Translations under genes and position numbers: made by a program
Notes under the pieces: model-generated
Databases searched by the model: none
What the model saw: the letters and a program-made list of their open reading frames with translations, nothing else
Told to the model about the DNA's origin: nothing
In this document: positions 1 through 49,599 of the stretch, in pieces
Layout of the letters: each line of letters begins with the position of its first letter
Numbering within the stretch: the stretch's first letter is position 1
DNA from: Bradyrhizobium sp. 1(2017)
GTDB lineage: Bacteria; Pseudomonadota; Alphaproteobacteria; Rhizobiales; Xanthobacteraceae
Direction: 5' to 3'
DNA length: 64,000 nucleotides
Assembly: GCF_011602485.2 (NCBI RefSeq)
Contig: NZ_CP050022.2
Coordinates: 806,001-870,000, forward strand

Positions 1-155
1 ATGACCAGGTCGTCCCCATCCATGATTCCGCCCTGTTGACCGTCAAGCTGCTCAAGCAGGGCGAACTCAAAGTCTACAAGGGCTATCCGCACGGCATGCT
101 GGCGACGAACGCCGATGAACTCAATGCAGATATCCTCGCTTTCATCCGCAAATAG
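1..155 (+). CDS. alpha/beta hydrolase, C-terminal fragment (cut by window edge)
   Basis: An open frame enters from the left edge and ends at TAG 153-155. The visible 50 or so residues begin with D-Q-V-V-P and contain a G-Y-P-H-G motif near the end, matching the Asp-containing loop and catalytic-His segment of the alpha/beta hydrolase fold (chloroperoxidase/arylesterase type). The nucleophile Ser would lie outside the window. The next gene starts 37 bases downstream on the same strand, so it may be co-transcribed with the nitrile hydratase-like genes. The substrate cannot be told. Confidence 0.6.
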   Translation, partial: DQVVPIHDSALLTVKLLKQGELKVYKGYPHGMLATNADELNADILAFIRK

Positions 156-191
156 GGCCCGCACGCATCGAACAGCGTCAGGAGCGATCGC

Positions 192-539
192 ATGAACGCC
201 AACGCGCGCCCCATCACCGGCCCCGGGCCGCACGTTGTGCGGGCGCTCGGGGAGACGCCGATTTTCTCGCCCGGCGACACCGTCAGGGTGCTCAACCGTT
301 CGCCGATCGGGCACTATCGCGTTCCGATCTATCTGCGCGGACGCGTAGGCGTCGTGGAGCGGGTGCTCGAACCCTCTCAGCTCGACAACGAACGCGAGGG
401 CTTCGGGCTGAACGCCGGCGACAAGCGCCACTATTACCGGGTGGCCTTCGCGCTCGGGGAGCTGTGGCCCGGCTATGTGGGTCCGTCACATGACAATTTG
501 CGCATTGAAGTCTTCGAGACATGGCTGGAGAGGATCTGA
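192..539 (+). CDS. Nitrile hydratase/thiocyanate hydrolase-like subunit (beta C-terminal domain)
   Basis: The 115-residue protein corresponds to the C-terminal SH3-like domain of nitrile hydratase beta, or to the separate ScnA-type subunit of thiocyanate hydrolase. The motif H-Y-R-V-P-x-Y-x-R-G-R-x-G (residues about 40-53) matches the family; one of its arginines is expected to contact the oxidised cysteine ligands of the metal site. The tail Y-Y-R-V-A-F ... L-W-P-G-Y ... H-D-N-L-R-I-E-V-F-E-x-W-L is also typical. It lacks the helical N-terminal half of an ordinary beta subunit, which is encoded separately at 1230-1586. The stop at 537-539 is one base before the alpha-subunit ATG, so the genes are co-translated. 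Family is clear; nitrile versus thiocyanate substrate is not. Confidence 0.85.
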   Translation: MNANARPITGPGPHVVRALGETPIFSPGDTVRVLNRSPIGHYRVPIYLRGRVGVVERVLEPSQLDNEREGFGLNAGDKRHYYRVAFALGELWPGYVGPSHDNLRIEVFETWLERI

Positions 540-540
540 C

Positions 541-1233
541 ATGGCAACGCAACCCGGCAATGCGGGTGATGAAGGGGATCACGCCCACCACCATGATCAC
601 GACCACGATCATGATCATCCGCACGCGCCGATCGCGCAAGAAGTCGAACCGGGCTATTTCGAATTGATGGAGACCGCGATGCGGGAACTCCTGGTGGAGT
701 GCAAGCTTATCGGCCCGGACGAAATCAGGCGACAAATCGAAGTGCTCGATTCCAGAACGCCGGCGCTCGGCGCCAAGGTCGTCGCCCGCGCATGGGTCGA
801 TCCCACGTTTCGCGAAAAGCTCCTCGAAAACGGCCGAAAGACGTGCGAAGAATTCGGGATCAGCTTCTACGATGATACACAGCTCATTGTGCTTGAGAAC
901 ACCGACACGGTGCACAATCTCATCGTTTGCACCCTGTGCTCATGTTATCCGCGACCTGTGCTCGGCCTCCCGCCGGATTGGTACAAGGCTCGGAATTATC
1001 GAGCGCGAGCGGTGATCGAGCCGCGCAAGGTGCTGGCGGAATTTGGTACCACCATCCCCGATGGTGTCGAGGTCCGCGTCAGCGATTCGACTGCAACGGT
1101 ACGCTTTCTGGTGCTTCCGATGCGCCCTGCCGGTACGGATGACTATGATGAAGAAGAGCTTGCGAGCTTGGTGACCCGGGATGCCATGATCGGCGTTATT
1201 CCGGTTCGCGTCAGTCAGGAGGCCGCGGCATGA
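541..1233 (+). CDS. Cobalt-type nitrile hydratase alpha subunit-like protein (ScnC/NHase alpha) with His-rich N-terminus
   Basis: This 230-residue protein carries the metal-site motif C-T-L-C-S-C at residues 130-135; Thr in the second position is characteristic of cobalt rather than iron enzymes. Cys133 and Cys135 would be oxidised to sulfinic and sulfenic acids and bind metal with Cys130 and two backbone amides. The W-Y-K-x-R-x-Y-R-A-R-A-V-I-E-P-R stretch after it is conserved in the family. Residues 13-28 hold nine histidines alternating with Asp, which is unusual and could store or load metal. ATG 541 is preferred over the in-frame GTG at 475 because GGAGAGG lies just upstream and 475 would run deep into the previous gene. 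It overlaps the next gene by ATGA. Substrate (nitrile, cyanohydrin, thiocyanate) is undetermined. Confidence 0.88.
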   Translation: MATQPGNAGDEGDHAHHHDHDHDHDHPHAPIAQEVEPGYFELMETAMRELLVECKLIGPDEIRRQIEVLDSRTPALGAKVVARAWVDPTFREKLLENGRKTCEEFGISFYDDTQLIVLENTDTVHNLIVCTLCSCYPRPVLGLPPDWYKARNYRARAVIEPRKVLAEFGTTIPDGVEVRVSDSTATVRFLVLPMRPAGTDDYDEEELASLVTRDAMIGVIPVRVSQEAAA

Positions 1234-1586
1234 GTCAGGCTGAAAACCTCGTCAATCGACTGCCCAACGACATTGGCGGTCTCACCGCCGGTCACATCGA
1301 GATGACCGATCACGAGCTGTTGCCGTGGGAGAAGCGCTGTCACGCGCTCGCGGACGTGCTGGACTTCCACAAGATCATCAACACCGAAGAGAAGAGGCGC
1401 GGGGTCGAGGCGCTCGGCACCGAGATGGTCGGCAAGCTAAGCTATTATGAGCGCTGGATTGTCGCTTTCGCCAATATTCTCTTTCAGAAGGGAATCCTGG
1501 CGCCCGAGCACCTCGCCGTAAAAATGGATGAGGTGCAAAAGCGCTGGCGGGACGAAGCGGCGAGAGCCTCGCGCGCGGGGTTGTAG
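1230..1586 (+). CDS. Nitrile hydratase/thiocyanate hydrolase-like subunit (beta N-terminal domain)
   Basis: The 118-residue protein has the hallmarks of the helical N-terminal half of nitrile hydratase beta or ScnB: N-D-I-G-G-L near residue 13, P-W-E-K-R-C-H-A-L around 33, S-Y-Y-E-R-W near 72, and K-G-I-L before a helical tail. It overlaps the alpha gene in ATGA (1230-1233), implying translational coupling. Nitrile hydratase activator proteins (P14K type) are distantly related to this same domain, so an accessory role is possible. No other activator or CobW-type chaperone gene is visible nearby. Confidence 0.78.
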   Translation: MSQAENLVNRLPNDIGGLTAGHIEMTDHELLPWEKRCHALADVLDFHKIINTEEKRRGVEALGTEMVGKLSYYERWIVAFANILFQKGILAPEHLAVKMDEVQKRWRDEAARASRAGL

Positions 1587-1610
1587 CAGCGATCACTTGG
1601 AGGAGGTCTC

Positions 1611-2003
1611 ATGAGCACTGACAAAAACGAAGCCACCGAAGCGGATTACGACACGATCTTGCGTGCCAACGCGGAGCGGGTCTTCAGCGAACGCGACCCC
1701 GCGGCAAGGCGCCGCGCGCTCGATCAACTGTGGTTGCCGGATGGCATCCTTTATGAAGACGGCCATGCCGTGACCGGCCTTGATGCGATCTCGGACACGG
1801 TCGGTGCCCTGCTGGATACACTTCCACCAGGAATGACCTTTGCGGCCGTCGGTCCTGCCGTTGGCCATCACGGCCTGGGACGGCTGCGCTGGCAGGCTAA
1901 GGACGGCAGTGGCAATCCTACACCGATCTGGGGAACGGACGTTGGCATCTTCCGGGATGGCAAGATTGCGCAGCTCTATGTCTTGCTGGATCCGGCTCAA
2001 TGA
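1611..2003 (+). CDS. SnoaL/NTF2-like small protein
   Basis: A 130-residue protein begins 24 bases after the hydratase operon, with GGAGGAG just upstream of the ATG. The pattern of an N-terminal helix pair followed by W-L-P-D-G-I-L-Y-E-D-G and a C-terminal strand pair (D-V-G-I-F-R-D-G-K-I-A-Q-L-Y) fits the cone-shaped NTF2/SnoaL fold, which includes isomerases, dehydratases and binding proteins. No catalytic residue can be assigned with confidence. Its place right behind the hydratase subunits suggests a shared pathway. Confidence 0.6.
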   Translation: MSTDKNEATEADYDTILRANAERVFSERDPAARRRALDQLWLPDGILYEDGHAVTGLDAISDTVGALLDTLPPGMTFAAVGPAVGHHGLGRLRWQAKDGSGNPTPIWGTDVGIFRDGKIAQLYVLLDPAQ

Positions 2004-2004
2004 C

Positions 2005-2469
2005 ATGACAAGCGACATCGAGAGACGTCTTCGCGCCTTGGAAGACGAGGCGGAGATCCACCGGATGGCCGCCCGTTTCAGCGACGCCGTCAATGCCCGC
2101 GACCTCGCCGCGTTCGCGGGCCTTTGGGCAAGTGCGGGAGCGATCTGGACGATCGGACCGCCTCTTGCGTCGCAGGCCGAGGGACGCGAAGCGATCGTTG
2201 CGATGCTCGGTCGTCTCAACCAGATCGAACGCTATTTCATGCAGATGACACATTCGGGGGTCGTCACTCTCGCCGGAGATCGTGCAACCGCGCGATTTAT
2301 CATCCGCGAACACGGCCGCGGCGACGGCACCTATTACGACAATCTCGGCATCTATAATGATGAGTTGATCCGGGAGGCGGACGGCTGGCGCTTCGCCAAA
2401 CGTAGCTACGCATACCGATTTCTCAACCAAAAGCCTTTCGACGACGATGCGTTCGACGCGTCCAAATAG
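2005..2469 (+). CDS. SnoaL/NTF2-like protein
   Basis: This 154-residue protein starts one base after the stop of its neighbour. The internal ATG at 2005 is chosen because an upstream in-frame start would lie wholly inside the preceding gene. It begins with a charged helix (D-I-E-R-R-L-R-A-L-E-D-E), then R-F-S-D-A-V-N-A-R-D, typical of SnoaL-like proteins related to ring-hydroxylating dioxygenase beta subunits and ketosteroid isomerases. Two adjacent NTF2-fold genes may form a hetero-oligomer. Function unknown. Confidence 0.62.
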   Translation: MTSDIERRLRALEDEAEIHRMAARFSDAVNARDLAAFAGLWASAGAIWTIGPPLASQAEGREAIVAMLGRLNQIERYFMQMTHSGVVTLAGDRATARFIIREHGRGDGTYYDNLGIYNDELIREADGWRFAKRSYAYRFLNQKPFDDDAFDASK

Positions 2470-2745
2470 GTGACGCCTCCCGCATCACTGCCTGACTAAC
2501 GGCCAATCCCCGTGGCGGCGTTTACCCAACCAAGCCACAACGAATGAAGGATCACGCTTTAGCAGCGCGGCCGGCGGGGGCGTTATGGCTTGGCCGGCAG
2601 CTTTAACGCGCTTTAACGCCGTTTAGCTTGGCTAAGGCTGGGGATTGCGAGCACTCTTTGCGCGCGGACAGGTATCGACCGCGGGTGGATCGCCCCTTTC
2701 CCAAATAGTCGCGCTCACGCGCTGCTTCGTTATAGCCAGCATGAC

Positions 2746-3516
2746 ATGCCAACGAGCTTGGACCACCCAGAGACGATCGTCGCCATTCCTATTGGACGAC
2801 GACCGTGCGCGCTCAGCGGGCCGTCCTTGCGGCGTGAGCGGGCGCAGAGGGACGGCCCGACCGGCCGAAATTCGACACTCAGCCACGCAACGAGCCAATC
2901 GTCCATGAGCGTCTCTCGCGCGGGCGCGGCCGTGCTTACGCTTGCGCGTGAAACGGACCATGGCGTGGCCCCGCCGCCCAAGCCCTGCAACGCGAACCAG
3001 AGCCCCGGCGACTTGGTTTCTCCGTTGTCGACCCTGGCGCACCAAGAGCTGATCAATGCCCTCCTCGGCGAGGCGTTGGCACTTCTCGATCAAGACCGGG
3101 CATCCGCACGTCGTTGCATCGAAGGCGCGCGATCGCTCATCCGCGCACCCGATCACGAGGACCGTCCGAGGAACTGCCTCTTGGCTGAGTGGCAGGTTCG
3201 GCGCGCCAAGGAGTTCATCCGCAACAATCTCGCAACCTGTTTGCGCATGGAGCTGGTCGCCAGGCATGTCCAATTGAGCGCCAGCTACTTCTCGCGTGCC
3301 TTCAAAGCGACAGCGGGCGTTTCCTATTCGGACTTTCTTGTCAACGCCCGAATCGATCTTGCCAAACAGCTGCTCCTTACGACGGACATCCCGATTTCCG
3401 AGGTGGCGCTTGCCTGCGGGCTCGCTGATCAATCGCACTTGACGAGATTGTTCGGGCGGATCGTCGGTCTGCCGCCGAACACGTGGCGGCGACAGGTCCT
3501 GGGAGCGGGATCGTAG
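2746..3516 (+). CDS. AraC family transcriptional regulator
   Basis: The C-terminal 100 residues form a double helix-turn-helix AraC domain: R-R-A-K-E-F-I-R-N-N-L, then S-A-S-Y-F-S-R-A-F-K, I-S-E-V-A-L-A-C-G-L-A-D-Q-S-H-L-T-R-L-F and G-x-x-P-x-x-W-R-R. The N-terminal part holds a helical stretch with D-Q-D-R-A-S-A-R-R-C-I-E-G-A but no cupin-like sensor domain that I can recognise. The start is uncertain: ATG 2746 gives 256 residues, ATG 2905 gives 203, and neither has a convincing ribosome site. Sitting between the hydratase genes and the 3753-5265 group, it may regulate either. Confidence 0.75.
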   Translation: MPTSLDHPETIVAIPIGRRPCALSGPSLRRERAQRDGPTGRNSTLSHATSQSSMSVSRAGAAVLTLARETDHGVAPPPKPCNANQSPGDLVSPLSTLAHQELINALLGEALALLDQDRASARRCIEGARSLIRAPDHEDRPRNCLLAEWQVRRAKEFIRNNLATCLRMELVARHVQLSASYFSRAFKATAGVSYSDFLVNARIDLAKQLLLTTDIPISEVALACGLADQSHLTRLFGRIVGLPPNTWRRQVLGAGS

Positions 3517-3752
3517 ATGTATCAACCAAACAGTCGATCAGAATCGAAGGGAGGATGCGATCGCCCAAGATCGCGAACGATCGAGCGGCTTTTAGATTGA
3601 GGATCGCCTAACGCGCCACGGAGGTCAGGGATTGAGCAGACGTGCCCGGCTTACCCCATCGGCGTAGAAGGCGTGCCCTCAGCGGACGTAACCAAGACGA
3701 CAGACCAAAATCCACACAGACCAAAATCCACCTCGAAGAAAGGACCTGAAAT

Positions 3753-4328
3753 ATGCATAAGAAAGTCTTCACGCCTGCCAACGCGGCCATGCTGCTGATC
3801 GATCATCAGATCGGCACGATGTCGTGGACCCACTCGCACGATATCAACCTCGTCAAGGCAAATGCGATCAAGCTCGCCAAGATCGCGGTCGGATCGAATA
3901 TTCCGGTGCTGCTCACCGTCAGCATGGAAGATCACGTTCAAGGGCCGCTGATCCCTGAGCTGAAGGAGATCTTGCCCGAAGCCTATGAGAAGCGGGTCAA
4001 GCGGCCGGGAATCGTCAATGCGATGCACCACCAGGGCTTCAATGACGCCGTGAAGGCGCTCGGTCGCAAGAAGCTCATCGTCGCCGGTATCACCACCGAG
4101 ATCTGCGTCCTGTTTCCGGTCCTGCAGATGCTCGACGAAGGCTACGAGGTGCAAGTCTCGGCGGATGCGTCGGCCTCGTACACCAAGTATGGCGACGACA
4201 TCGCGTTGCGCCGCATGGAACAGGCCGGCGCCATCATCAGCACGCACGACCAGCTGATTTCGGAGCTGGCGGTTGATTGGACCACTCCGATTGGCCAGAA
4301 ACTCTCCGGTATCCTCAACTACCATTAA
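3753..4328 (+). CDS. Isochorismatase-like cysteine hydrolase
   Basis: The 191-residue protein has the layout of the isochorismatase/nicotinamidase superfamily: L-L-I-D-H-Q with the catalytic Asp at residue 17, a Lys in the K-R-V-K-R-P segment near 80-84, and the nucleophile Cys118 in G-I-T-T-E-I-C-V after a cis-peptide-type V-A-G. Family members hydrolyse amides, carbamates or enol ethers. GAAAGGA precedes the ATG. Downstream of a hydratase that would make amides, an amidohydrolase role is plausible, but this is inference from context only. Confidence 0.8.
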   Translation: MHKKVFTPANAAMLLIDHQIGTMSWTHSHDINLVKANAIKLAKIAVGSNIPVLLTVSMEDHVQGPLIPELKEILPEAYEKRVKRPGIVNAMHHQGFNDAVKALGRKKLIVAGITTEICVLFPVLQMLDEGYEVQVSADASASYTKYGDDIALRRMEQAGAIISTHDQLISELAVDWTTPIGQKLSGILNYH

Positions 4329-4501
4329 TCGGCATTGCCGCTCTGTTGAAAGAGTTCGCGGTCGCGCGCCGCCTGTTCGCAGCGCGCTACTGCCGAAACC
4401 TCCGCGGGCCGGCTCGCTGCGTCAGCGACGAATTGCATGACATCACGACCGGAATTGAACCCAACGATGCCGTCAATCTGTCTTCACGGGGGACGAATGA
4501 T

Positions 4502-4921
4502 ATGAACCAGACTTTTGCTAGGGGGCAGCCCATCGTATTGAGCCTGCTTCGCTTCACCACGGGCCTGCTGCTGCTGCAGTATGGCATCGCCAAGATCTTC
4601 AAATTTCCCGTTGTGCCTTACTTTGCCAATATCCCGCCCCTCATCACCGTAGCGGGCGCGATCGAGCTGATTGGCGGCACGCTGCTGCTGCTTGGCCTTT
4701 TTTCGCGCCCGGTCGCGTTCATCCTGTCAGGCCAGATGGCGTTCGCTTACTTTCTGGGTCACATGTTCAAGGGCGCGGATCCGGTTTTCCTGCCGCTGCT
4801 GAATGGCGGCACGCCCGCGATCCTGTTTTGCTTCACCTGTCTCTACCTGGCGACCTCGGGCGGGGGCCCGATCAGCCTCGATGCAATGCTGAACAAGAAC
4901 ATCCATGGGAGGGCCGTATGA
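4502..4921 (+). CDS. DoxX family membrane protein
   Basis: A 139-residue protein with four hydrophobic segments and the DoxX signature region L-R-F-T-T-G-L-L-L-L-Q-Y-G-I-A-K at the start, then G-A-I-E-L-I-G-G-T-L-L-L-L-G-L-F-S-R. DoxX proteins are integral membrane proteins, some acting with quinone-linked dehydrogenases or redox stress systems. The internal ATG 4502 is preferred over an upstream in-frame one because the extra N-terminus would overlap the preceding gene and carry no conserved sequence. It overlaps the next gene by ATGA. Confidence 0.8.
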   Translation: MNQTFARGQPIVLSLLRFTTGLLLLQYGIAKIFKFPVVPYFANIPPLITVAGAIELIGGTLLLLGLFSRPVAFILSGQMAFAYFLGHMFKGADPVFLPLLNGGTPAILFCFTCLYLATSGGGPISLDAMLNKNIHGRAV

Positions 4922-5265
4922 AAATGCTCGATTGGAACGCTTACCGCGTTCAACTCCTTGCCGGCGTCGGCGAAATGGGCAAGCTCAGCCCGGACACGGT
5001 CAAGGGGTATGTCACCCTCAGCGGGGCCGGCACGAAGACGGGTCACCTGGATGCCAAGACCCGAGAGTTGATTGCGCTCGCCGTGTCGATTACGTTGCGA
5101 TGCGATGGCTGCATTACCGTTCACTCTGCCCAGGCAAAAAAACTGGGTGCGACAACGGAAGAGATCGCCGAGGCACTCGGCGTTGCTGTCGCGATCAATG
5201 CGGGCGCAGCCTTGGTCTATTCAACGCGCGCGCTCGACGCTCTTTCGGCGCTCGAAGCGACCTGA
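4918..5265 (+). CDS. Carboxymuconolactone decarboxylase/AhpD family protein
   Basis: This 115-residue protein contains C-D-G-C-I-T-V-H at residues 62-69, the CxxCxxxH motif of AhpD-like alkylhydroperoxidases, inside a helical core (L-D-A-K-T-R-E-L-I-A-L-A-V ... H-S-A-Q-A-K-K-L-G-A-T-x-E-E-I). The redox Cys pair suggests thiol peroxidase-type activity rather than lactone decarboxylation. It is translationally coupled to the DoxX gene upstream (ATGA overlap), a pairing that supports a membrane redox or peroxide function. Confidence 0.82.
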   Translation: MKMLDWNAYRVQLLAGVGEMGKLSPDTVKGYVTLSGAGTKTGHLDAKTRELIALAVSITLRCDGCITVHSAQAKKLGATTEEIAEALGVAVAINAGAALVYSTRALDALSALEAT

Positions 5266-5425
5266 CGTCGTTCGGGCCGACAGGTGCCTTGCGACGGTAG
5301 CCCAACGGCATGGCGGCTGTCGACGCAAGCCAGCTTCATCCGCGGCGGCCGAGCCGTTAGCTGCCCATCGCGAATGATGGTTTCGAAGCGCGTAGCCCTG
5401 AGAGGCTAGAGGAAAGTACCAAGTC

Positions 5426-6859
5426 ATGTTCGGATTGACGGCGCTCGAGCTGGCGCGAATCCAGTTCGGGTTCACCATCTCCTTCCACATCATCTTTCCG
5501 GCCATCACGATCGGCCTGGCGAGCTATCTCGCCGTGCTGGAGGGCCTCTGGTTATGGAAGAAAAACCCGGTCTATCGGGACCTCTATCACTTCTGGTCGG
5601 GTATCTTCGCCGTCAATTTCGCGATGGGTGTCGTCTCCGGGCTGGTCATGGCCTATCAGTTCGGGACCAACTGGAGTTATTTCTCCGCGTTCGCGGGAAG
5701 CATCACGGGTCCTCTCCTGACCTATGAGGTGCTCACCGCTTTCTTCCTCGAGGCTGGCTTCCTTGGCGTGATGCTGTTCGGCTGGAACAAAGTGGGGCCG
5801 GGCTTGCATCTCTTCGCCACGATCATGGTTGCGATCGGCACGTTGATCTCGGCTACCTGGATTCTTGCCTCCAACAGTTGGATGCAAACGCCGCAAGGGT
5901 TCGAAATCATCGACGGGCGCGTCGTGCCGACGGATTGGTTGAAGGTTATCTTCAATCCCTCGTTTCCCTACCGGCTCGCGCACATGACGCTTGCCGCCTA
6001 TCTGTCGACCGCCCTGTTCGTTGGGGCGGGCGGCGCATGGCACCTCCTCAAGGGACGCAACACGCCTGCGGTTCGCACAATGTTTTCCATGGCGCTGTGG
6101 ATGGTGCTGCTGGCGGCGCCGCTCCAGATCGAGCTCGGCGATTTGCACGGCCTCAACACACTGAAGCACCAGCCGGCGAAGATTGCCGCGATCGAAGGCC
6201 ATTGGGAGAACGTGCCGGGCGAGAGTGTGCCGCTGATCGTGTTCGGCTTGCCCGACATGAAGGCGGAAGTCACGCGCTACGCTATCGAGGTGCCGTATCT
6301 CGGCAGCTTGATTCTCACGCACGACATCAACGGGCAAATCCCGGGGCTCAAGGAATTCCCGCCGCAGGATCGACCGAACTCCGCCGTCGTGTTCTGGAGC
6401 TTCAGGGTCATGGTTGGACTCGGCCTTCTCATGCTCGTCCTGGGTTTCTGCGGGCTTTTGGCACGGCGCGGGCAGCGATTGTACCAATCAAAGGCCCTGC
6501 AACGGTTCGCCGTGATCATGGGTCCCTCCGGACTGATAGCAATCCTCGCCGGATGGTTCACCACGGAGATCGGCCGTCAGCCCTGGGTGGTCTATGGTGT
6601 GATGCGGACCGAGCATGCCGTGTCGAACCATAGTGCGCTGGCGCTTTCGACGACGCTGATCATCTTCATCGTGATGTATGTCGCGGTGTTCGGCATCGGT
6701 GTCTCCTATATGCTGAAGTTGGTGAGTCGGGGGCCGCAGGCCTACGATCATGCCGCAGGTGAGAACCTCAAGGACCCCGGGCAGAGCCAACGCCCTGCAC
6801 GGCCATTATCCGCGCCGCCCGACAACATCGATCCAACACCAAATCTGGGAGGGCGTTGA
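5426..6859 (+). CDS. cioA: Cytochrome bd-type (cyanide-insensitive type) quinol oxidase subunit I
   Basis: A 477-residue polytopic membrane protein of the CydA family. By position, His21 and His186 would ligand the haems, Met329 in F-W-S-F-R-V-M-V-G ligands b558, and Glu101 and Glu109 lie in the proton-path helix. G-R-Q-P-W sits at 383-387. The region between the conserved quinol-loop sequences is short, so it lacks the long Q-loop insertion of E. coli CydA and belongs with the short-loop CioA type, some of which are cyanide-insensitive. The enzyme oxidises ubiquinol and reduces O2 without pumping protons. GAGGAAAG precedes the ATG and cioB starts three bases after the stop. No FNR-type box was seen upstream. 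Confidence 0.93.
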   Translation: MFGLTALELARIQFGFTISFHIIFPAITIGLASYLAVLEGLWLWKKNPVYRDLYHFWSGIFAVNFAMGVVSGLVMAYQFGTNWSYFSAFAGSITGPLLTYEVLTAFFLEAGFLGVMLFGWNKVGPGLHLFATIMVAIGTLISATWILASNSWMQTPQGFEIIDGRVVPTDWLKVIFNPSFPYRLAHMTLAAYLSTALFVGAGGAWHLLKGRNTPAVRTMFSMALWMVLLAAPLQIELGDLHGLNTLKHQPAKIAAIEGHWENVPGESVPLIVFGLPDMKAEVTRYAIEVPYLGSLILTHDINGQIPGLKEFPPQDRPNSAVVFWSFRVMVGLGLLMLVLGFCGLLARRGQRLYQSKALQRFAVIMGPSGLIAILAGWFTTEIGRQPWVVYGVMRTEHAVSNHSALALSTTLIIFIVMYVAVFGIGVSYMLKLVSRGPQAYDHAAGENLKDPGQSQRPARPLSAPPDNIDPTPNLGGR

Positions 6860-6862
6860 GCC

Positions 6863-7870
6863 ATGGGTATCGACCTTCCACTTATTTGGGCTGTGATCAT
6901 CGGCTTCGCGCTGATGATGTATGTGATCATGGACGGATTCGATCTTGGTATCGGCGTCCTGTTTCCATTCGTGCGCGACCGGGGCGACCGCGACACCATG
7001 GTCAACACCGTAGCGCCGGTTTGGGACGGCAACGAGACGTGGCTGGTGCTTGGGGGCGCTGCGCTGCTGGCCGCGTTTCCGCTTGCCTATTCGGTCGTAT
7101 TGAGCGCGCTCTATCTGCCCTTGGTGTTGATGCTCGCGGGCCTGATCTGGCGCGGCGTTGCCTTCGAGTTCCGCTTCAAGGCCGACGAGGCACATCGACC
7201 CTTTTGGGACAAGGCGTTCGCCTGGGGATCGTACATAGCGACCTTTTTCCAAGGCGTGGCTCTGGGAGCCTTCATCAATGGTTTCGCCGTTGTCGGCGGC
7301 GCTTATGGTGGCGGTAGCTTGGACTGGTTGCACCCGTTCAGCGTATTCACCGGCCTCGGTCTCCTGGTCGCGTATGCCTTGCTTGGCAGCACATGGCTCA
7401 TCATGAAAACAGATGGAAACCTGCAACGGCGCATGATCCAAATCGCTCGGCTTGTGACCCTTGCGCTGTTCGGTGTGATCGGCATCGTTAGCTTGTGGAC
7501 GCCATTGAAGCATCCCGCGATCGCGGCGCGATGGTTCAGCTTGCCCAACATCCTGTTCTTCGCTCCGGTGCCACTGTTGGTGCTGGCGGTCACGGTACTG
7601 TTGCTCAAGGTGTTGCGTCCCGGCGGTCATGCGGCACCGTTCCTGCTGGCGCTCTTCCTGCTGTTCCTGGGTTATAGTGGCCTGGCAATCAGCCTGTGGC
7701 CGCATTTGATTCCTCCGTCGATCACCATCTGGGACGCAGCCGGCCCGCCGCAAGCATTGGGCTTCACACTCGTAGGCGCGCTGTTCATCATTCCTTTCAT
7801 CCTCGCCTACACGGCGTGGGCCTATTATGTGTTCCGAGGCAAGGTGAATGCGGGCGAAGGCTATCATTGA
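6863..7870 (+). CDS. cioB: Cytochrome bd-type quinol oxidase subunit II
   Basis: A 335-residue CydB-family membrane protein. The start (L-P-L-I-W-A-V-I-I-G-F-A-L-M-M-Y-V-I-M-D-G-F-D-L-G), then P-V-W-D-G-N-E-T-W-L-V and the later W-P-H-L-I-P-P-S are classical family sequences. It pairs with CioA to form the oxidase core. Its stop overlaps the start of the small third gene (TGATG at 7868-7872), so the three are one translational unit. Confidence 0.93.
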   Translation: MGIDLPLIWAVIIGFALMMYVIMDGFDLGIGVLFPFVRDRGDRDTMVNTVAPVWDGNETWLVLGGAALLAAFPLAYSVVLSALYLPLVLMLAGLIWRGVAFEFRFKADEAHRPFWDKAFAWGSYIATFFQGVALGAFINGFAVVGGAYGGGSLDWLHPFSVFTGLGLLVAYALLGSTWLIMKTDGNLQRRMIQIARLVTLALFGVIGIVSLWTPLKHPAIAARWFSLPNILFFAPVPLLVLAVTVLLLKVLRPGGHAAPFLLALFLLFLGYSGLAISLWPHLIPPSITIWDAAGPPQALGFTLVGALFIIPFILAYTAWAYYVFRGKVNAGEGYH

Positions 7871-8010
7871 TGTCGTCCTCCCGCAGCCAGCAGAGCTGGA
7901 AGAGTCGGCTTGGCTGGCTGGTGTTGATCTGGACCGCGAGCGTCCTGACGCTTGGTGCCGTCGCACTGATGTTCAGGGGCCTGATGAATGCTGCAGGACT
8001 GACGTCCTGA
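7870..8010 (+). CDS. DUF2474-type small membrane subunit of the bd oxidase
   Basis: A 46-residue single-pass membrane protein: a basic, Ser-rich N-terminus, W-K-S-R-L-G-W-L, then a hydrophobic helix to about residue 38. It matches the small DUF2474 proteins found behind cioAB in many proteobacteria, the counterpart of CydX, which stabilises the haem site in E. coli bd oxidase. The ATG overlaps the cioB stop, supporting it as a real gene despite its size. Confidence 0.8.
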   Translation: MSSSRSQQSWKSRLGWLVLIWTASVLTLGAVALMFRGLMNAAGLTS

Positions 8011-8204
8011 TCGGCGCATGGTCATTAGGCCGCTATTTGAAGCGCTTTTACGACAGCTGGATTGGCCTCCAGTTGCGCGATGCGTTGAATGCCAAGACAG
8101 GGCCGCGTGCACTCCGCGTGGAGTTATACGGCTCAGGCGCGAAACACAGACCGATTACAAGTCAATGCAGCAGGGCCAACGTAGGATGATCAAGAGGGAA
8201 GATC

Positions 8205-9185
8205 ATGATATCCGTTTTAAACAACCGCAATAACGGGCTCGCTGACGATGCTGCGACGAAGCTGTTGCGCGGCTCATCCGCCAATGCCAACGGAGAGCCC
8301 GCGAGTGCAAATGCGGCTGCCGACGAAGCTGGCAAAACAGCCGCAAGTTCCGGACAAGGCTCGGCCGTACAGGTGACCATTTCCGCGGACGCAGCGACGC
8401 GTTTGCAAGCCCTCAACGCGCAACCGGACAATGTGGCCACGGCGCTGGCGAACCAGCTTCAGCAAAACAGCGACGCGCTCAGTACCTTGGACGCAGCGCG
8501 CAAGAACACGGCCGCGGACCGCAAGAAGGAGGCCGAACACAAGCTGCAACAGGCCATCAAGGCTCTTCAACTATTGCAGATCCTCGGCGGCGATCCCGCA
8601 TCCCAGGCCAGGCAAGCCAAGAATATCGGCAAAAAGATCACGGATGCTGCGGGTGAATACAACACTGCCCTGAAGGACGAGGCAGGCGGCAGCGCCCCCA
8701 GTCCTTCCCGCGCAAACGACCCCGCTGCCAAGGCCGCAGATGCGGCCACCGCGACATCCGTCGCGGCAACGGAGGCACGGCCGATCGCCGAGGATCCAGT
8801 TGCAGCCGCGGCGACAACCGACAGCAGGCAAGCTTCGATCGGTTCGGACACCACCCGGCAGCAGGCCATCGACGCCTACCAAAGTCCCGCCGACCGCGCC
8901 ATGGCCAAGGCAACCGCCTACAAACTTGGTCAGCACGATCGGGATGTGCTGGCCTTGTTCAAGGGCGCCGCCAACCAAGTCAAGCACGTGCTGGATGACG
9001 CTGCGCAACGGGCGAAAGCCAAGAACGCGGCCGACCCTCGCGACCGGCAAATTGGAAGCGAACTGGACAAGGCGGTCGGCGATCTCGCCGAGACGATCGA
9101 GATCAAGCAGTCGGGCGGCGACGTCTCCGCACTGCTCGGGCAGGACAGTCATTCAGCACCGGCTCCCGTGGACATTCTGGCCTGA
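8205..9185 (+). CDS. Ala-rich hypothetical protein
   Basis: A 326-residue hydrophilic protein rich in Ala, Asp, Gln and Lys, with no signal peptide or membrane segment. Residues about 70-155 are predicted helical or coiled-coil-like (heptad-like Leu/Ala in L-Q-Q-A-I-K-A-L-Q-L-L-Q-I-L-G). A low-complexity Ala/Thr linker follows (about 165-225), then a second helical block (Y-K-L-G-Q-H-D-R-D-V-L-A-L-F-K-G-A). GAGGGAAG precedes the ATG. I recognise no family. Its place between the oxidase and the cupin/mqo genes gives no clear clue. Confidence 0.6.
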   Translation: MISVLNNRNNGLADDAATKLLRGSSANANGEPASANAAADEAGKTAASSGQGSAVQVTISADAATRLQALNAQPDNVATALANQLQQNSDALSTLDAARKNTAADRKKEAEHKLQQAIKALQLLQILGGDPASQARQAKNIGKKITDAAGEYNTALKDEAGGSAPSPSRANDPAAKAADAATATSVAATEARPIAEDPVAAAATTDSRQASIGSDTTRQQAIDAYQSPADRAMAKATAYKLGQHDRDVLALFKGAANQVKHVLDDAAQRAKAKNAADPRDRQIGSELDKAVGDLAETIEIKQSGGDVSALLGQDSHSAPAPVDILA

Positions 9186-9365
9186 TGCGGTGGCGAGCCA
9201 AGTGGGGTTTTTGCGTGTGGCGCCTCAGCTCAAACAGGATGCGGCGCCTTCGTGTGCGGGAGTTCGGGCCCCAAGGCGCGAGCGTCGGTCGGGATTGTGC
9301 CGGGTGAAGCGCTTTTGTTTCGTCATCCGGTCGCGGATGTCAACCAAGGCAAGCAGGAGCAGACA

Positions 9366-9752
9366 ATGATCAGATGTGTTCGGATATGGACTGGCGATGA
9401 CGGCAACTCTCTGTTCGAAGAGGGCGTGATCGACCTTCCCAACGGTGAGCGCGGGGATATCCTGAGCAGGACGGTCCCAGCGTCCAGCATTTCGTTTCGC
9501 GAGACCAGGTCAGGCGGCGCGTTCGCTCCGCACGATGCCCCGACGAGGCAGCTCGTCATCACCCTTGGCGGCACACTCCGGTTCGAGACCGCCAGTGCGG
9601 CCTCCTTCATCATCCGGCCGGGGGATATCTTGCTCGCCGAGGACACGACAGGAACGGGCCATAGCTGGAAGCTCATGGATGATCAGCCATGGCGCCGCTG
9701 CTACGTCATTGTCGGGCCGGACACTGCAATCCCATTCGTCAAGTCTTCGTAA
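9366..9752 (+). CDS. Small cupin-domain protein
   Basis: A 128-residue protein with a beta-sandwich pattern: H-D-A-P-T-R-Q-L-V-I-T-L-G-G-T-L-R-F-E (cupin motif 1 region), then F-I-I-R-P-G-D-I-L-L-A-E-D and G-T-G-H-S-W-K (motif 2 region). Only some usual metal ligands are present, so enzymatic activity is unsure. ATG 9366 has AGGAG upstream and is preferred over an earlier in-frame start at 9252. It lies 52 bases before mqo and may share its transcript. Confidence 0.68.
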   Translation: MIRCVRIWTGDDGNSLFEEGVIDLPNGERGDILSRTVPASSISFRETRSGGAFAPHDAPTRQLVITLGGTLRFETASAASFIIRPGDILLAEDTTGTGHSWKLMDDQPWRRCYVIVGPDTAIPFVKSS

Positions 9753-9804
9753 TCGTGATCGGAGACGCCCGCCAGCGGCAGCGTCTTGACTGGAGGAGAG
9801 TTAA

Positions 9805-11322
9805 ATGACCAAGACCCCAGATACAGACCGTCCCGACGTGGTGCTGATCGGCGCCGGCATCATGAGCGCCACGCTGGGGACTGTTCTGAAAGAACTCGAG
9901 CCCTCACTCGTGATCCGCATGTTCGAGACATTGCATGATTGCGGCCTGGAAAGCTCCGATGGCTGGAACAATGCTGGCACAGGCCACGCCGCGAACTGCG
10001 AGCTGAACTACACTCCGCAGCGCGCCGACGGCAGCATCGACATCAGCAAGGCTCTCGAGGTCAACACCGAGTTCGATATCTCGCGCCAGCTCTGGTCATT
10101 TCTCGTGGAGAAGGGCGCGATCCCCGATCCGAGGGCGTTCATTCACCCGTGCCCACACATGAGCTTCGTCTGGGGTGACGCCAATGTCGCGTTTCTCCGC
10201 GCGCGCTTCAAGGAGATGTCCGCGCATCACTGCTATCACGGAATGGAGTATTCCGAGGATCACGCCCAGATTGCCGCGTGGGCTCCTCTCATCATGGAAG
10301 GCCGTGACCCGAGCCAGCAGGTTGCGGCGACCCGTATCGTCACCGGCACGGATGTCGACTACGGCGCGCTGACGCGTCTGCTCGTCAAGCATCTCGCAAG
10401 CCAGCCTGACTTTACGACCCGCTACAATCGCAAAGTGGTCGCGCTGGATCGCTCGGAGGACGGCCGCTGGCTCGTTTCAGCCCAGGACACATATGACGGC
10501 GGAATCGAGACGGTGTCGGCGAAATTCGTTTTCATCGGGGCCGGCGGCGGCTCGCTGCCGCTGCTGCAGAAATCCGGGATACCGGAAGGAAAGGGCTATG
10601 GCGGTTTTCCCGTCAGTGGGATCTGGCTCCGCTGCGATGTCGATGCGATCAGCCAGAGGCATGGCGCCAAGGTGTACGGCAAGGCCGCCACGGGCTCGCC
10701 ACCGATGTCGGTACCTCACCTCGATACGCGCATCATCGGCGAGAAGCAGTCGCTCCTGTTCGGACCTTATGCCGGATTCTCGAGCAAATTTCTGAAATAT
10801 GGATCGCTCACGGATCTGTTCACGTCACTGAGCGGCGACAACATCATTCCACTGCTCGATGTGGCGCGCGACAATGTGCAATTGTCCGAATATCTCATCG
10901 GCCAAGTGATGCAGAGCGCGGACCATCAATTTGCGACGCTGCAGCAATTCTTCCCGAAGGCCGTCAAGCAGGACTGGACGAAAGCCGTCGCCGGCCAGCG
11001 TGTGCAGACCATCAAGCCGCATATGAGCGGCGGCTGGTTCAAGCATGAGGAAGGCTTGCTCGAGTTCGGAACCGAGGTTGTCGCTGCTGCGGACAAGTCG
11101 CTCGTCGCCTTGCTCGGCGCATCGCCGGGCGCCTCCACCGCAGCATTCATCGCCCTGGAAGTCTTGCAGCGCTGCTTCGATGGCGAACTGACCGAAAGCG
11201 GCTGGCTGCCTCGCTTGCGAAACATCATCCCAACCTTCGGCATCGATCTCACCCGCGACGCCGAGGCCTGCCGGAAGACTCGGGCAGCGACGGCAGGATC
11301 GCTGAAAATCGAAAACGTCTGA
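9805..11322 (+). CDS. mqo: Malate:quinone oxidoreductase
   Basis: A 505-residue FAD enzyme, normal length for the family, with the dinucleotide fold G-A-G-I-M-S-A-T-L-G at the N-terminus and the Mqo-typical S-S-D-G-W-N-N-A-G-T-G-H-A segment near residue 50. It oxidises malate to oxaloacetate at the inner membrane face and passes electrons to quinone, feeding a quinol oxidase such as CioAB directly. A strong GGAGGAGAG site precedes the ATG. fumC lies 55 bases downstream, so the pair can convert fumarate to oxaloacetate. Confidence 0.95.
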   Translation: MTKTPDTDRPDVVLIGAGIMSATLGTVLKELEPSLVIRMFETLHDCGLESSDGWNNAGTGHAANCELNYTPQRADGSIDISKALEVNTEFDISRQLWSFLVEKGAIPDPRAFIHPCPHMSFVWGDANVAFLRARFKEMSAHHCYHGMEYSEDHAQIAAWAPLIMEGRDPSQQVAATRIVTGTDVDYGALTRLLVKHLASQPDFTTRYNRKVVALDRSEDGRWLVSAQDTYDGGIETVSAKFVFIGAGGGSLPLLQKSGIPEGKGYGGFPVSGIWLRCDVDAISQRHGAKVYGKAATGSPPMSVPHLDTRIIGEKQSLLFGPYAGFSSKFLKYGSLTDLFTSLSGDNIIPLLDVARDNVQLSEYLIGQVMQSADHQFATLQQFFPKAVKQDWTKAVAGQRVQTIKPHMSGGWFKHEEGLLEFGTEVVAAADKSLVALLGASPGASTAAFIALEVLQRCFDGELTESGWLPRLRNIIPTFGIDLTRDAEACRKTRAATAGSLKIENV

Positions 11323-11377
11323 AACGCCGCGTCGCCCGCTCCCGATACCAACCGGTCCCATGAAGGAAAATCCGCTC

Positions 11378-12841
11378 ATGACCGAATCCGCAAACCAGGC
11401 CCCGCCAAAAATGACCGACATCCCGATCGGATTACCGGCAGCCGGCACCCGCCAGGAATTCGACTCGATGGGCCACCTGGATGTGCCGGCCTCGGTCTAC
11501 TACGGTGCGCAGACGGCGCGGTCGCTGATTCATTTCTCGATCGGCGATGACCGCATGCCGAAGGCTGTCTATCATGCCTACGGCATCGTCAAGAAGGCTT
11601 GCGCGCTGGTCAACGAAGCTGCCGGGCGCCTGCCGTCCTGGAAGGCGGTAGCGATCGTTCACGCCGCGGACGAGGCGATTGCGGGCAAGCTCGATGCGCA
11701 TTTTCCACTCTACGTCTGGCAGACCGGATCGGGCACCCAGTCGAACATGAACGTCAATGAAGTGATTTCGAATCGCGCCATCCAGCTTCTGGGTGGCACG
11801 CTCGGAACGCAGCAGCCGGTCGGCCCGAACGACGACGTCAATATGGGCCAAAGCTCGAACGATACGTTTCCGACTGCGATGCATGTCGCCGCCATCGACG
11901 TGATCGGGAAGCGGTTGCTGCCCGAGCTCGATGCGCTCGCCACCGTTATCGAGATCAAGGCAAAGGGATGGATGGAGGTCGTCAAGGCCGGACGTACCCA
12001 TCTGGAGGATGCGACGCCGCTGACGGTCGGCCAGGAATGGTCGGGATATGCAGCTCAGATTCGTGCCTGCATGGCGGCCATCGCGGCGTCTCGCGCAGGC
12101 CTCTACGAGCTCGCCGTGGGCGGTACCGCCGTCGGTACCGGCCTGAACGCACCGAAGGGCTTCAGTGTCGCGGTGGCGGCGAAGATCGCCGAGCTCACCG
12201 GCGAACCCTTCGTCACCGCGCCCAACAAGTTCATGGCGCAGGGCTCGCTCGATGCGATGGTCCGCGCTCATGCCGCGTTACGCGGGCTGGCGGTGGCGTT
12301 GATGAAGATCGCCAACGACATGCGCTGGCTGGCGTCGGGGCCACGCTGCGGGCTCGGTGAACTGAAACTCCCGCAGAACGAGCCGGGCTCGTCCATCATG
12401 CCGGGCAAGGTCAACCCAACCCAGTGCGAAGCCATCGTCATGATAGCCATCCAGGTCCTGGGCAACGATGCGGGCGTGGCGTTTGCCGGATCCCAGGGGA
12501 ATTTCGAGCTGAACGCGATGCGACCCATCATCATCAACTCATTCCTGCACTCGGCGACGATCCTGGCGGATGGCTGCGCCAAGTTTCGCAGCTTCTCGGT
12601 CGAAGGTACCGAATTGAATGAGGAGAAGATCGCAAGCTACGTGGCCAACAGCCTGATGCTGGTGACGGCACTGTCGCCCGTGATCGGGTACCAAAAAGCC
12701 GCTCGCATCGCCGAAAAAGCCGATGCGGACGGACTGACCTTGCGTGCAGCCGCGCTCGCGTCGGGAGACGTGGACGAAAAGACCTTCGACGATGTCGTAA
12801 ATCCGCGCGCGATGGTCGGCGAAGGCGTCGGCGGCGCTTAG
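11378..12841 (+). CDS. fumC: Class II fumarate hydratase
   Basis: A 487-residue member of the fumarase/aspartase superfamily with the signature G-S-S-I-M-P-G-K-V-N-P at about 337-347, plus T-G-S-G-T-Q-S-N-M-N-x-N-E and G-R-T-H-x-x-D-A-T-type segments (here H-L-E-D-A-T-P). It converts fumarate and malate and has no iron-sulfur cluster, unlike class I fumarases, so it should resist oxidants and cyanide. ATG 11378 is preferred over ATG 11360 because AAGGAAA stands at the right distance before it. Directly follows mqo. Confidence 0.93.
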   Translation: MTESANQAPPKMTDIPIGLPAAGTRQEFDSMGHLDVPASVYYGAQTARSLIHFSIGDDRMPKAVYHAYGIVKKACALVNEAAGRLPSWKAVAIVHAADEAIAGKLDAHFPLYVWQTGSGTQSNMNVNEVISNRAIQLLGGTLGTQQPVGPNDDVNMGQSSNDTFPTAMHVAAIDVIGKRLLPELDALATVIEIKAKGWMEVVKAGRTHLEDATPLTVGQEWSGYAAQIRACMAAIAASRAGLYELAVGGTAVGTGLNAPKGFSVAVAAKIAELTGEPFVTAPNKFMAQGSLDAMVRAHAALRGLAVALMKIANDMRWLASGPRCGLGELKLPQNEPGSSIMPGKVNPTQCEAIVMIAIQVLGNDAGVAFAGSQGNFELNAMRPIIINSFLHSATILADGCAKFRSFSVEGTELNEEKIASYVANSLMLVTALSPVIGYQKAARIAEKADADGLTLRAAALASGDVDEKTFDDVVNPRAMVGEGVGGA

Positions 12842-41544: not shown

Positions 41545-42585
41545 TCACGCGTTGCCGCGATCCTCGCGAAACAGATCCAGCTTCTGCTGCACCGGCCGGT
41601 CCGAGAAGCTGAACAGCACCGCGTCGTCGTCCGCTTCGTGCGTCACCCAGTGCCAGCTCGGCACGACGAAGAGATCGCGCGGGCCCCATTCGAAGACGGT
41701 ATCGCCGATGCGGCTGCGGCCGCGGCCCTCGATCGGGCAGAACACGGTCGCATCGGTCGAGCGATAGCGCGCGGAGTTGAACCCCTTCGGCAGCAGCTGG
41801 ATGAAGGTGCCGATGGTCGGCATGGCGAAATCGCCGGTCTCGGGATTGCTGAACTTCAGCTTCAGGCCGTGGCACGCATCCCACTCCTGGCTCGCGCGCG
41901 CCTTCTCCAAGGCTTCGCGGGTGTAGGCATAGGGATAGCTGAAGATCGGCGAGGTCTTCGACGATCGCTTCACATCGACCGGCAGCAGATTATGACCGTA
42001 GCGGGCAAAGCTGTCGCCGGCGGGCCTCGTGATCTTCTGCTGGTCCTCCTTGGAGCCTTCCGCAAAGGAGCAGTCGAAGAACTGCACCAGCGGGATGTCG
42101 AGGCCGTCGAGCCAGAACATCGGCTCGCTGGTCTCGTTGGAATGATCGTGCCAGGTCATCGACGGCGTGATGATGAAATCGCCGGGCTCCATCGCGGTGC
42201 GCTCGCCGTCCACCGCGGTGTGGGCACCCCTGCCTTCGAGCACGAAGCGCAGTGCCGACTGGCTGTGCCGATGCGCAGGCGCGACGTCGCCGGGCACCAC
42301 CATCTGCACGCCGGCATAGAGCGAGGTCGTGATCTTGGACTGGCCGCGCAGGCCCGGGTTCTCCAGCACCAGCACGCGCCGCTCCGCTTCCTTCGCGGTG
42401 ATCAGCTTGCCGGCTTCCGTCATGTAGTCGCGGATCACGTCGAATTTCCAGAGATGCGGCCTACAGGCGCTTTTCGGCTCCGGCGTGATCAGGTCGCTCA
42501 TCACCGTCCACAGCGCGGTGAGGTTCTCGCCGTCGATCTTTTTGTAGAAGGCCTCGCGTTCCGGCGTCTTGGTCACGGCTTCCAT
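41545..42585 (-). CDS. Gentisate 1,2-dioxygenase
   Basis: A 346-residue bicupin dioxygenase that opens the gentisate ring between carboxyl and adjacent hydroxyl to give maleylpyruvate. The N-terminal cupin shows A-P-A-H-R-H-S-Q-S-A-L-R-F (metal-binding His pair, about 102-114) and G-D-F-I-I-T-P-S-M-T-W-H-D-H. The second cupin shows R-G-R-S-R-I and P-S-W-H-W-V-T-H. Length is normal for the family. GGGAG precedes the start at 42585, and upstream lies a promoter with the site shared with the hydroxylase gene. Confidence 0.92.
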   Translation of the reverse strand: MEAVTKTPEREAFYKKIDGENLTALWTVMSDLITPEPKSACRPHLWKFDVIRDYMTEAGKLITAKEAERRVLVLENPGLRGQSKITTSLYAGVQMVVPGDVAPAHRHSQSALRFVLEGRGAHTAVDGERTAMEPGDFIITPSMTWHDHSNETSEPMFWLDGLDIPLVQFFDCSFAEGSKEDQQKITRPAGDSFARYGHNLLPVDVKRSSKTSPIFSYPYAYTREALEKARASQEWDACHGLKLKFSNPETGDFAMPTIGTFIQLLPKGFNSARYRSTDATVFCPIEGRGRSRIGDTVFEWGPRDLFVVPSWHWVTHEADDDAVLFSFSDRPVQQKLDLFREDRGNA

Positions 42586-42611
42586 GGTTGCTGCTCCCGT
42601 TCGTTTTGTTG

Positions 42612-42645
42612 ATTGACAGTATACTGACGATCTAGGTAGCGTCAA
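42612..42645 (-). promoter_or_regulatory. Promoter of gentisate dioxygenase with a site shared with the 46877-46900 promoter
   Basis: On the minus strand TTGACG (42645-42640) and TATACT (42623-42618) are 16 bases apart, a good sigma-70 promoter leading to the dioxygenase. The 24 bases 42612-42635, beginning ATTGACAGTATACT and ending ATCTAG, recur upstream of the hydroxylase gene with two mismatches and overlap the -10 element. The core AGTATACT is a palindrome. It could also affect the divergent GST/MarR transcript. Confidence 0.65.
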
Positions 42646-42658
42646 CGTGACGGGAAAC

Positions 42659-42759
42659 GTCATTCCGGGACCGATGCGACAGCATCGACCTATGGTGCGC
42701 AATTGCGCACCTGAAAATTTCGAGGTTCCGGGTTCTCGCTTCGCGAGCCCCGGAACGAC
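42659..42759. repeat. Palindromic intergenic repeat (fourth family)
   Basis: GTCATTCCGGGACCGATGCG opens it and CCCCGGAACGAC closes it, with inner hairpins GGTGCGCAATTGCGCACC and TCTCGCTTCGCGAG. Elements of this layout are common between genes in Bradyrhizobium to my knowledge. It separates the dioxygenase promoter from the GST gene. Confidence 0.65.
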
Positions 42760-42784
42760 AAAGCAAAATCAGAGGGAGGTCTTC

Positions 42785-43919: not shown

Positions 43920-43953
43920 GGGGAGTCTCACGCCTCGCGCCTCATTCTCCGCC

Positions 43954-44085
43954 GTCGTCCCGGACAAGCGCAGCGCAGATCCGGGACCCATACGCCGCAG
44001 CTGTGGTTGTGGTGTGAGATGGTCATTGCCGATCTTCGCCAAACCTCTTCCTGTGGTTATGGGTCCCGGCCTTCGCCGCGACGAC
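43954..44085. repeat. Bradyrhizobium-type palindromic repeat, paired-arm copy 4 (diverged)
   Basis: The left arm is altered (GTCGTCCCGGACAAGCGCAG...) whereas the right arm keeps TATGGGTCCCGGCCTTCGCC before a GCGACGAC end. The spacer shares TGGTCATTGCCGATCTTCGCC-type sequence with other copies. It lies between convergent MarR and CoA-ligase genes. Confidence 0.75.
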
Positions 44086-44111
44086 AGCGAATGTGTGGCA
44101 GCGCTCTTCCC

Positions 44112-49388: not shown

Positions 49389-49599
49389 GGCGTTCCCCTC
49401 TTGGCTGTTTGACGATTATTGATGCAGCTGCCGCAAAGAAGGCATGCAAGCCGCATGTGTTGTGCGCTGCGTGAAGGCTAGATCGCCACGTTGCAATTCA
49501 CAACGGGAACATCCGGCCAACGCCAACACACGCAAAGCGTGTTGCGTCGCTGTGATATCTGCGACATCATGAAGCGCCGGTGTGCGTTGGGGGTTAGCG

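Follow-up and report, generated by a model that had tools for sequence, protein, structure and literature searches.

Probable juxtaposition of a split-beta cobalt hydratase operon and a variant of a recurring fumC-cupin-mqo-cydAB cluster in Bradyrhizobium sp. 1(2017)

Between positions 192 and 12841 of a 64 kb window (64,000 nucleotides, positions 806,001 to 870,000 of contig NZ_CP050022.2) taken from the 7.86 Mb single-contig genome of Bradyrhizobium sp. 1(2017), a cobalt-type hydratase operon is followed by genes for an isochorismatase-fold hydrolase, a bd-type quinol oxidase (CioAB), malate:quinone oxidoreductase (Mqo) and fumarase (FumC). Does this stretch encode one system? The initial annotation read it as a single module for cyanide or nitrile tolerance and assimilation, in which FumC and Mqo would supply oxaloacetate, the cyanohydrin formed from it would be converted to an amide by the hydratase in place of the nitrilase NitC, the isochorismatase-fold protein would release ammonia, and CioAB would maintain respiration. 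Profile searches found all five kinds of gene where that annotation had placed them, and the fumarase is of the cluster-free class II, as it had said. Comparison with related loci indicates that the stretch is nevertheless probably a juxtaposition of separately evolving units. One would consist of an alpha/beta-hydrolase gene and two SnoaL genes, with AraC and YcaC-like genes adjoining, into which an independently acquired hydratase operon would have been inserted. The others, cioAB-DUF2474 and cupin-mqo-fumC, would together form a variant of a recurring fumC-cupin-mqo-cydAB cluster. A tempting but unsupported single module is thereby replaced by two testable ones.

The limits of the hydratase block are marked by an empty site. 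Genome G056 aligns collinearly with the window region as far as base 155 (78% identity), resumes at base 1606, in the first SnoaL gene (72%), and between the same two genes has only 42 bp where the window has the 1.45 kb hydratase operon. In genome G039, matches to the YcaC, SnoaL, SnoaL and hydrolase genes occur in the same order, in pieces, and also without a hydratase; this locus (L160:11340-13192) reads as broken, as if decaying or badly assembled. The YcaC gene is convergent with the SnoaL genes in both G056 and G039 and has the same direction as them in the window. The hydratase operon is very likely an insert, and the compared sequences suggest that the change was a gain in the window. 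Over the first 20 kb the G+C content stays between 58 and 66% in each kb and does not change abruptly at the insert, and a compositional signature of foreign DNA was rejected on this ground.

Co-occurrence of the hydratase with cioAB, mqo and fumC, chosen beforehand as the test of the single module, was seen in none of 16 related hydratase loci (8 chromosomal or contig and 8 plasmid) nor in locus L006, within approximately 10 kb or less at contig ends. The first eight come from seven genomes of the order (L113-L120, stretches of ∼18-20 kb; L114 and L005 are apparently the same Acuticoccus contig), and no match to cioA, cioB, mqo, fumC or the YcaC gene was detected at E 1e-6 in these or in L006. 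In the plasmid collection PLSDB, 140 records match the alpha gene, 15 of them at ≥60% identity, and no match to cio, mqo, fumC or YcaC was present in the eight of these 15 that were examined. Conversely, neither the hydratase nor YcaC lies within 7 kb of mqo in any of 34 mqo loci. At the genome level, a window-type hydratase is found in 8 and mqo in 10 (E up to 1e-100) of 397 genomes of the order, with only the window's own genome in common. The single cyanide-assimilation module was rejected because co-occurrence was absent from the loci and genomes examined and the hydratase from the collinear G056 locus.

The rarity of this hydratase depends on the sample considered. An alpha-like match is present in 112 of 117 genomes of the genus, the copies other than that of the window being ∼44-53% identical or fragments, and the window type was found only in the window's own genome. 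It occurs in 8 of the 397 order genomes including the window's own (71-77% identity). A protein search with alpha gave 7,998 matches among 8,000 candidates scored, and the best 120 matches listed include proteins of Rhizobium leguminosarum (78%) and of a metagenome-assembled genome (MAG) named Bradyrhizobium (75%). The type is widespread, and the count of 1/117 therefore speaks for this genus sample only.

Elsewhere, the operon has recurrent neighbours of its own. In the eight order loci, clustering grouped genes for an MBL-fold hydrolase (8/8, three Pfam-tested), a carboxymuconolactone decarboxylase (CMD; 5/8) and an alpha/beta hydrolase (4/8), and a CbiM-type cobalt permease is present in five (L116, L118, L119 and L120 tested by Pfam). 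All eight plasmid loci have the YPR claw described below; seven have the window gene order and the Streptomyces locus has betaN-betaC-alpha. PLSDB gene tables are incomplete and one of the eight records is without annotation, but a cobalt transporter lies within ∼3 kb of the operon in all seven annotated loci (four CbtAB, three of HoxN type), and in four of them the operon is followed by an aquaporin gene. Operons of the window type with an aquaporin and a CbtAB or HoxN-type transporter are carried by plasmids of Rhizobium, Microvirga, Polymorphobacter and Streptomyces (L184, L185, L189, L191 and others), and MIP-type genes are also found in L005 and L118. These partners indicate that the hydratase has its own associations, with cobalt uptake and a water or small-solute channel, and is often plasmid-borne. 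The window copy has an alpha/beta hydrolase and a CMD gene in common with the related loci. In two Rhizobium plasmids (L185 and L190), a cytochrome P460 family gene follows the operon, in one case with a sulfite oxidase gene close by as well. Hydratase genes are also carried by environmental MAG records whose titles, Bordetella parapertussis and Bifidobacterium breve (L013, L055, L027), look doubtful.

The mqo-fumC part of the stretch recurs in a different company. In the 117 genus genomes, 27 mqo genes were found in 24 (E up to 1e-60) and cydA in 91 (E up to 1e-100), and for 24 of the 27 mqo genes, that of the window among them, a cydA is found no more than 5 kb away. A genome of ∼8 Mb has one to four cydA, which puts the chance of such proximity, as a rough estimate, well under 1%. 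The 34 mqo loci examined, the window excluded, comprise 28 of a close type (65-87% identity, one of them in the window's genome) and six distant ones (48-51%). The cupin gene is present in 28/28 close loci, fumC in 27/28 and cydAB in 23/28 (cydAB lacking in L082, L130, L131, L138 and L139), and the sole close locus without fumC is at a contig end; the distant loci have none of cupin, fumC, cydAB, hydratase or YcaC. The usual order is fumC-cupin-mqo-cydA-cydB, and L083 in genome G025, where fumC matches in two pieces, has the window order, cydAB-cupin-mqo-fumC. A second complete fumC-cupin-mqo-cydAB cluster is found in the same genome as the window [G000:C1:6728837-6734663; L088:6837-12663]. 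The part of the initial proposal that joined mqo, fumC and a bd oxidase is borne out by these arrangements; the inclusion of the hydratase and the isochorismatase-fold protein is not.

The cupin gene is the constant partner. The DNA match with G056 begins 11 bp ahead of the cupin start and ends at the fumC stop. Cupin-mqo-fumC is also seen in L177, from another taxonomic order, and cupin-mqo in L178. In a sample of the phylum, 14 of 398 genomes have a cupin match at E 1e-12, and all six matches with ≥55% identity adjoin mqo, in the window, L088, G021, G329, G810 (with fumC) and G821 (without it). Among the more distant cupins (34-41% identity), five of nine were fetched and no mqo match was found nearby. 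For the cupin family 1,776 relatives were found, mostly unnamed, hypothetical or quercetin dioxygenase-like by name. A plasmid search for mqo matched 198 records, the best at 65% identity. Since many of the genus loci are close orthologues, the independent evidence lies in the changed gene orders and the distant genera. Cupin-mqo-fumC is a recurrent block with a constant cupin partner, separate from the hydratase; at a guess, the cupin may be a regulator or an assembly partner of Mqo. In open-access literature, judged by titles and the beginnings of abstracts, no paper listed described a fumC-mqo-cydAB cluster or mqo in Bradyrhizobium.

The window oxidase has a short Q-loop, as first annotated: alignments with E. 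coli AppC and CydA [PDB 7ose and 6rko] skip 64 residues of the structures at query positions 315-317. Segments with the His, Met and Glu residues that we take to be the haem ligands of bd oxidases are present. These features define a short-Q-loop bd type that is predicted to be insensitive to cyanide. CioA of the window is 78-80% identical to that of G104, G047, G027 and G053 and 47% identical to the CydA usually encoded beside mqo. Either a different oxidase may have been recruited to the same functional partnership, or the two blocks may adjoin by chance.

The recurring cluster is best read as a respiratory shunt, in which FumC would convert fumarate to malate, Mqo would oxidise malate to oxaloacetate while reducing quinone, and the bd oxidase would pass the electrons from quinone to oxygen. 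As this route would need neither NADH, nor the bc1 complex and cytochrome c oxidase, nor an Fe-S fumarase, it should run under cyanide, nitric oxide, sulfide, peroxide or iron shortage, and cyanide tolerance is one possible use of it. Since a PF05681 (class I-type) fumarase is encoded as well, FumC could be a spare for iron or oxidative stress. We suggest, with rather more doubt than assurance, that FumC, the cupin, Mqo and a short-Q-loop bd oxidase constitute a dedicated inhibitor-proof shunt assembled more than once with oxidases of different clades, the cupin being constant and functionally necessary across alpha- and putatively gamma-proteobacteria.

The linkage of mqo, fumC and the bd oxidase could instead serve fast malate oxidation, on root exudates or in bacteroids, without a role in stress. 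No FNR/FixK-like box with up to one mismatch lies near the genes, the nearest being at 19918 (4 matches in the 64 kb against 3.55 expected), and by eye an open reading frame (ORF) at 49582-50898 in the window resembles a C4-dicarboxylate symporter, of possible interest beside malate-oxidising genes. This is a tenable explanation whose chances fall somewhat below even. Where a PF05681 fumarase is encoded too, the pairing of an Fe-S-free fumarase with an oxidase independent of cytochrome c would fit inhibitor or iron stress better. The single assimilation module is, by comparison, very improbable. It is consistent with the presence of all genes on one strand within 12.7 kb and with the functional link between Mqo and Cio in cyanotrophic Pseudomonas described in PMC11049912; a basic pocket in the hydratase could accept an anionic cyanohydrin, and the genes could have been assembled recently in this strain. 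It is opposed by the absence of co-occurrence from the loci and genomes examined, by the empty site in G056 and by the company of the YcaC-like gene, which in G056 and G039 is that of SnoaL and alpha/beta-hydrolase genes and not of mqo. Nor does the genome encode a NitC-type nitrilase above cut-off.

The hydratase itself is encoded by a tightly packed three-gene operon of the cobalt type in the order betaC-alpha-betaN. Alpha has a His/Asp-rich N-terminus and a Co-type CTLCSC claw followed by YPR, and alignment shows that the catalytic Cys and beta Arg residues are conserved. Its initial designation as nitrile hydratase-like stands for the Pfam families, the claw and the catalytic Arg, but neither alpha nor beta reaches the NCBIfam nitrile hydratase cut-offs. 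Alpha scores 245.1 bits against TIGR01323 (cut-off 249.85) and 218.5 bits against TIGR03887, the model for the gamma subunit of thiocyanate hydrolase (SCNase; cut-off 291.45), and the beta halves score 57 and 44.5 bits against TIGR03888 (cut-off 152.2).

To score split and fused beta forms, each half was compared by BLAST with every ORF of a locus, a half being counted anywhere in the locus and not only beside alpha (in L011 the halves are 4 kb away). Of the 86 alpha rows from the fetched loci, 50 have a fused and 26 a split beta; the other 10 escaped scoring and were excluded, namely six R rows with just the N-half, two R rows with neither half because of a cut contig, one Q row with just the N-half and one H row with just the C-half. 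At the position after CTLCSCYP, all 50 fused-beta rows have Trp (45) or His (5), and 25 of the 26 split-beta rows have Arg (20) or Lys (5), the other having Val. This residue separates the two classes in 75 of the 76 scored rows, which are not independent, about a quarter of the alpha rows coming from the window's own genus and many being close kin. In a tree of 87 alpha rows, computed with this residue included, the split rows, the unscored Arg rows, the window and SCNase of Thiobacillus thioparus share one side of a branch with support of 92/84. Just ahead of the catalytic betaN Arg, the window, its clade and L006 have Lys and T. thioparus SCNase has Arg; no other row has Lys or Arg here and one fused row has His. 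The pocket is therefore probably basic, owing to the Arg of alpha and the Lys of betaN, a sign of an anionic substrate, for instance thiocyanate, which both residues might bind. As a tentative first guess, somewhat short of an even prospect, the enzyme would hydrate a small compound that carries or acquires a negative charge, thiocyanate being one example.

Alternatively, the enzyme may be a cobalt nitrile hydratase acting on HCN or on neutral organic nitriles, with a beta gene split by coincidence. Alpha scores higher with the nitrile hydratase model than with the SCNase gamma model, the catalytic Cys and Arg residues are conserved, an amidase gene lies 6 kb away in one plasmid locus, and an aquaporin beside relatives fits a small uncharged compound. 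The aquaporin neighbours make this alternative slightly more likely, and it is judged possible although doubtful. The separation of split-beta/basic and fused-beta/Trp-His classes by residue and at one tree branch argues against it, as does a second hydratase in the same genome, at C1:4.11 Mb, which has a fused beta and Trp at the claw position. The alpha of this copy is ∼52% identical to that of the window and groups in the tree with genus-sample rows and named Bradyrhizobium rows. Where relatives of the window alpha are named, most are labelled nitrile hydratase, though the split beta and basic claw surroundings resemble SCNase. Rhizobial plasmids carry the operon in company with a cobalt transporter and an aquaporin, and its substrate may be thiocyanate or a neutral compound.

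Several observations weigh against the preferred reading of separate units with an anion-handling hydratase and a stress-proof shunt. All genes from 192 to 12841 are on one strand and may be co-transcribed. The window oxidase belongs to a different clade from the mqo-linked one, a 1 kb ORF separates it from the cupin gene, and four examined loci of the window cioA clade have no mqo match nearby. Being for the most part close orthologues from a single genus, the mqo-cydAB loci are not independent. No cobalt transporter or aquaporin was seen by eye in the gene lists around the window copy. The aquaporin genes beside related operons suggest an uncharged small substrate or product and speak against a strictly anionic one; the solute moving in or out could be HCN, a small nitrile, an amide or ammonia. 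SCNase is far from the window clade, with a very long T. thioparus branch (3.2), and since the window alpha lacks the SCNase insertion and falls below both curated cut-offs, the hydratase was not filed as an SCNase.

Features of the region are listed in Table 1. The initial annotation had omitted the upstream alpha/beta-hydrolase gene, which is mostly outside the window, the two SnoaL genes, the AraC, DoxX and CMD genes, the DUF2474 gene behind cioB, the 326-aa ORF and the cupin gene directly before mqo. The 326-aa ORF had no match in the loci where it was searched. No tRNA gene was found in the window, and promoter and terminator scans gave chance levels. Further along, at ∼41545-46861, a group resembling gentisate or aromatic degradation genes (dioxygenase-like, isomerase-like, CoA ligase and FAD monooxygenase) was noted by eye.

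Table 1. Features at the start of the window, with gene calls from profile searches.
Position	Strand	Feature	Evidence
1..155	+	alpha/beta-hydrolase, 3′ end, chloroperoxidase-like by eye	PF00561; whole gene L003:12169-13155
156..1605	+	probable inserted block, exactly the three hydratase genes	DNA comparison with G056, gene order in G039
192..539	+	hydratase betaC (beta C-terminal half), separate gene	PF02211 7.3e-19; Arg of HYRxP..RG conserved
541..1233	+	hydratase alpha, counterpart of SCNase gamma	PF02979 7.1e-79; SCNase comparison
1230..1586	+	hydratase betaN (beta N-terminal half), separate gene overlapping the alpha stop	PF21006 6.7e-15
1611..2003	+	SnoaL-like protein 1	PF12680
2005..2469	+	SnoaL-like protein 2	PF13577
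2746..3516	+	AraC-type regulator	PF12833
3753..4328	+	isochorismatase-fold hydrolase, YcaC-like	PF00857 3.1e-24; PDB 4wgf, 1yac
4502..4921	+	DoxX family membrane protein	PF07681
4918..5265	+	CMD/AhpD-like protein	PF02627 3.7e-23
5426..6859	+	bd-type quinol oxidase subunit I, CioA type, short Q-loop (cydA/cioA)	PF01654 8.1e-169; PDB alignments
6863..7870	+	bd-type quinol oxidase subunit II (cydB/cioB)	PF02322 4.4e-100; TIGR00203 above cut-off
7870..8010	+	DUF2474 small protein, 46 aa, after cioB	PF10617 1e-17
8205..9185	+	326-aa ORF between cioAB and cupin, without significant family match	Pfam search
9366..9752	+	cupin-like protein directly before mqo	weak PF02311, 18.1 bits (cut-off 21.1)
9805..11322	+	malate:quinone oxidoreductase (Mqo)	TIGR01320 654.5 bits (cut-off 549.95); PF06039
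11360..12841	+	class II (Fe-S-free) fumarase FumC	TIGR00979 674.6 bits (cut-off 664.75)

Among known systems, SCNase of T. thioparus [PDB 2dd4] shares with the window three separate subunits with beta split in two, the CTLCSC claw followed by Tyr-Pro-Arg (Arg136 counted on the chain), a His/Asp-rich N-terminus of alpha/gamma, and a basic residue before the catalytic beta Arg (RR in SCNase, KR in the window). However, the SCNase gene order is betaN-betaC-gamma, an insertion before the claw in L048 and 2dd4_C is absent from the window alpha by eye, and an extra ORF after the SCNase genes in L048 has no equivalent in the window. None of the open-access papers listed dealt with SCNase Arg136. Two-subunit cobalt nitrile hydratases, such as 1v29 and the copy at C1:4.11 Mb, have the Pfam families, claw motif and catalytic Arg residues in common with the window and differ in having beta as one chain. 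According to PMC8061750, an Afipia has a thiocyanate desulfurase and no scnABC.

Elsewhere in the Bradyrhizobium genome are a cyanase gene and eight nitrilase-superfamily matches. For the NitC type, the best match has 224 bits against a cut-off of 502.6 for TIGR04048, a model that we take to be linked to nit1C. Pseudomonas CECT 5344, as described in PMC11049912, requires NitC for cyanide assimilation and has in common with the window Mqo and a Cio-type bd oxidase, whose link had been correctly stated in the initial annotation. Its mqoA, mqoB and cioAB genes are at separate loci [BN5_0860, BN5_1358 and BN5_1902-1903], and the words fumarase and cupin are absent from the text of that article. 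In Bradyrhizobium, whose nodule forms live on dicarboxylates, the cupin-mqo-fumC block with cydAB gives the Mqo-Cio link of cyanotrophic Pseudomonas a partner protein and a physical cluster.

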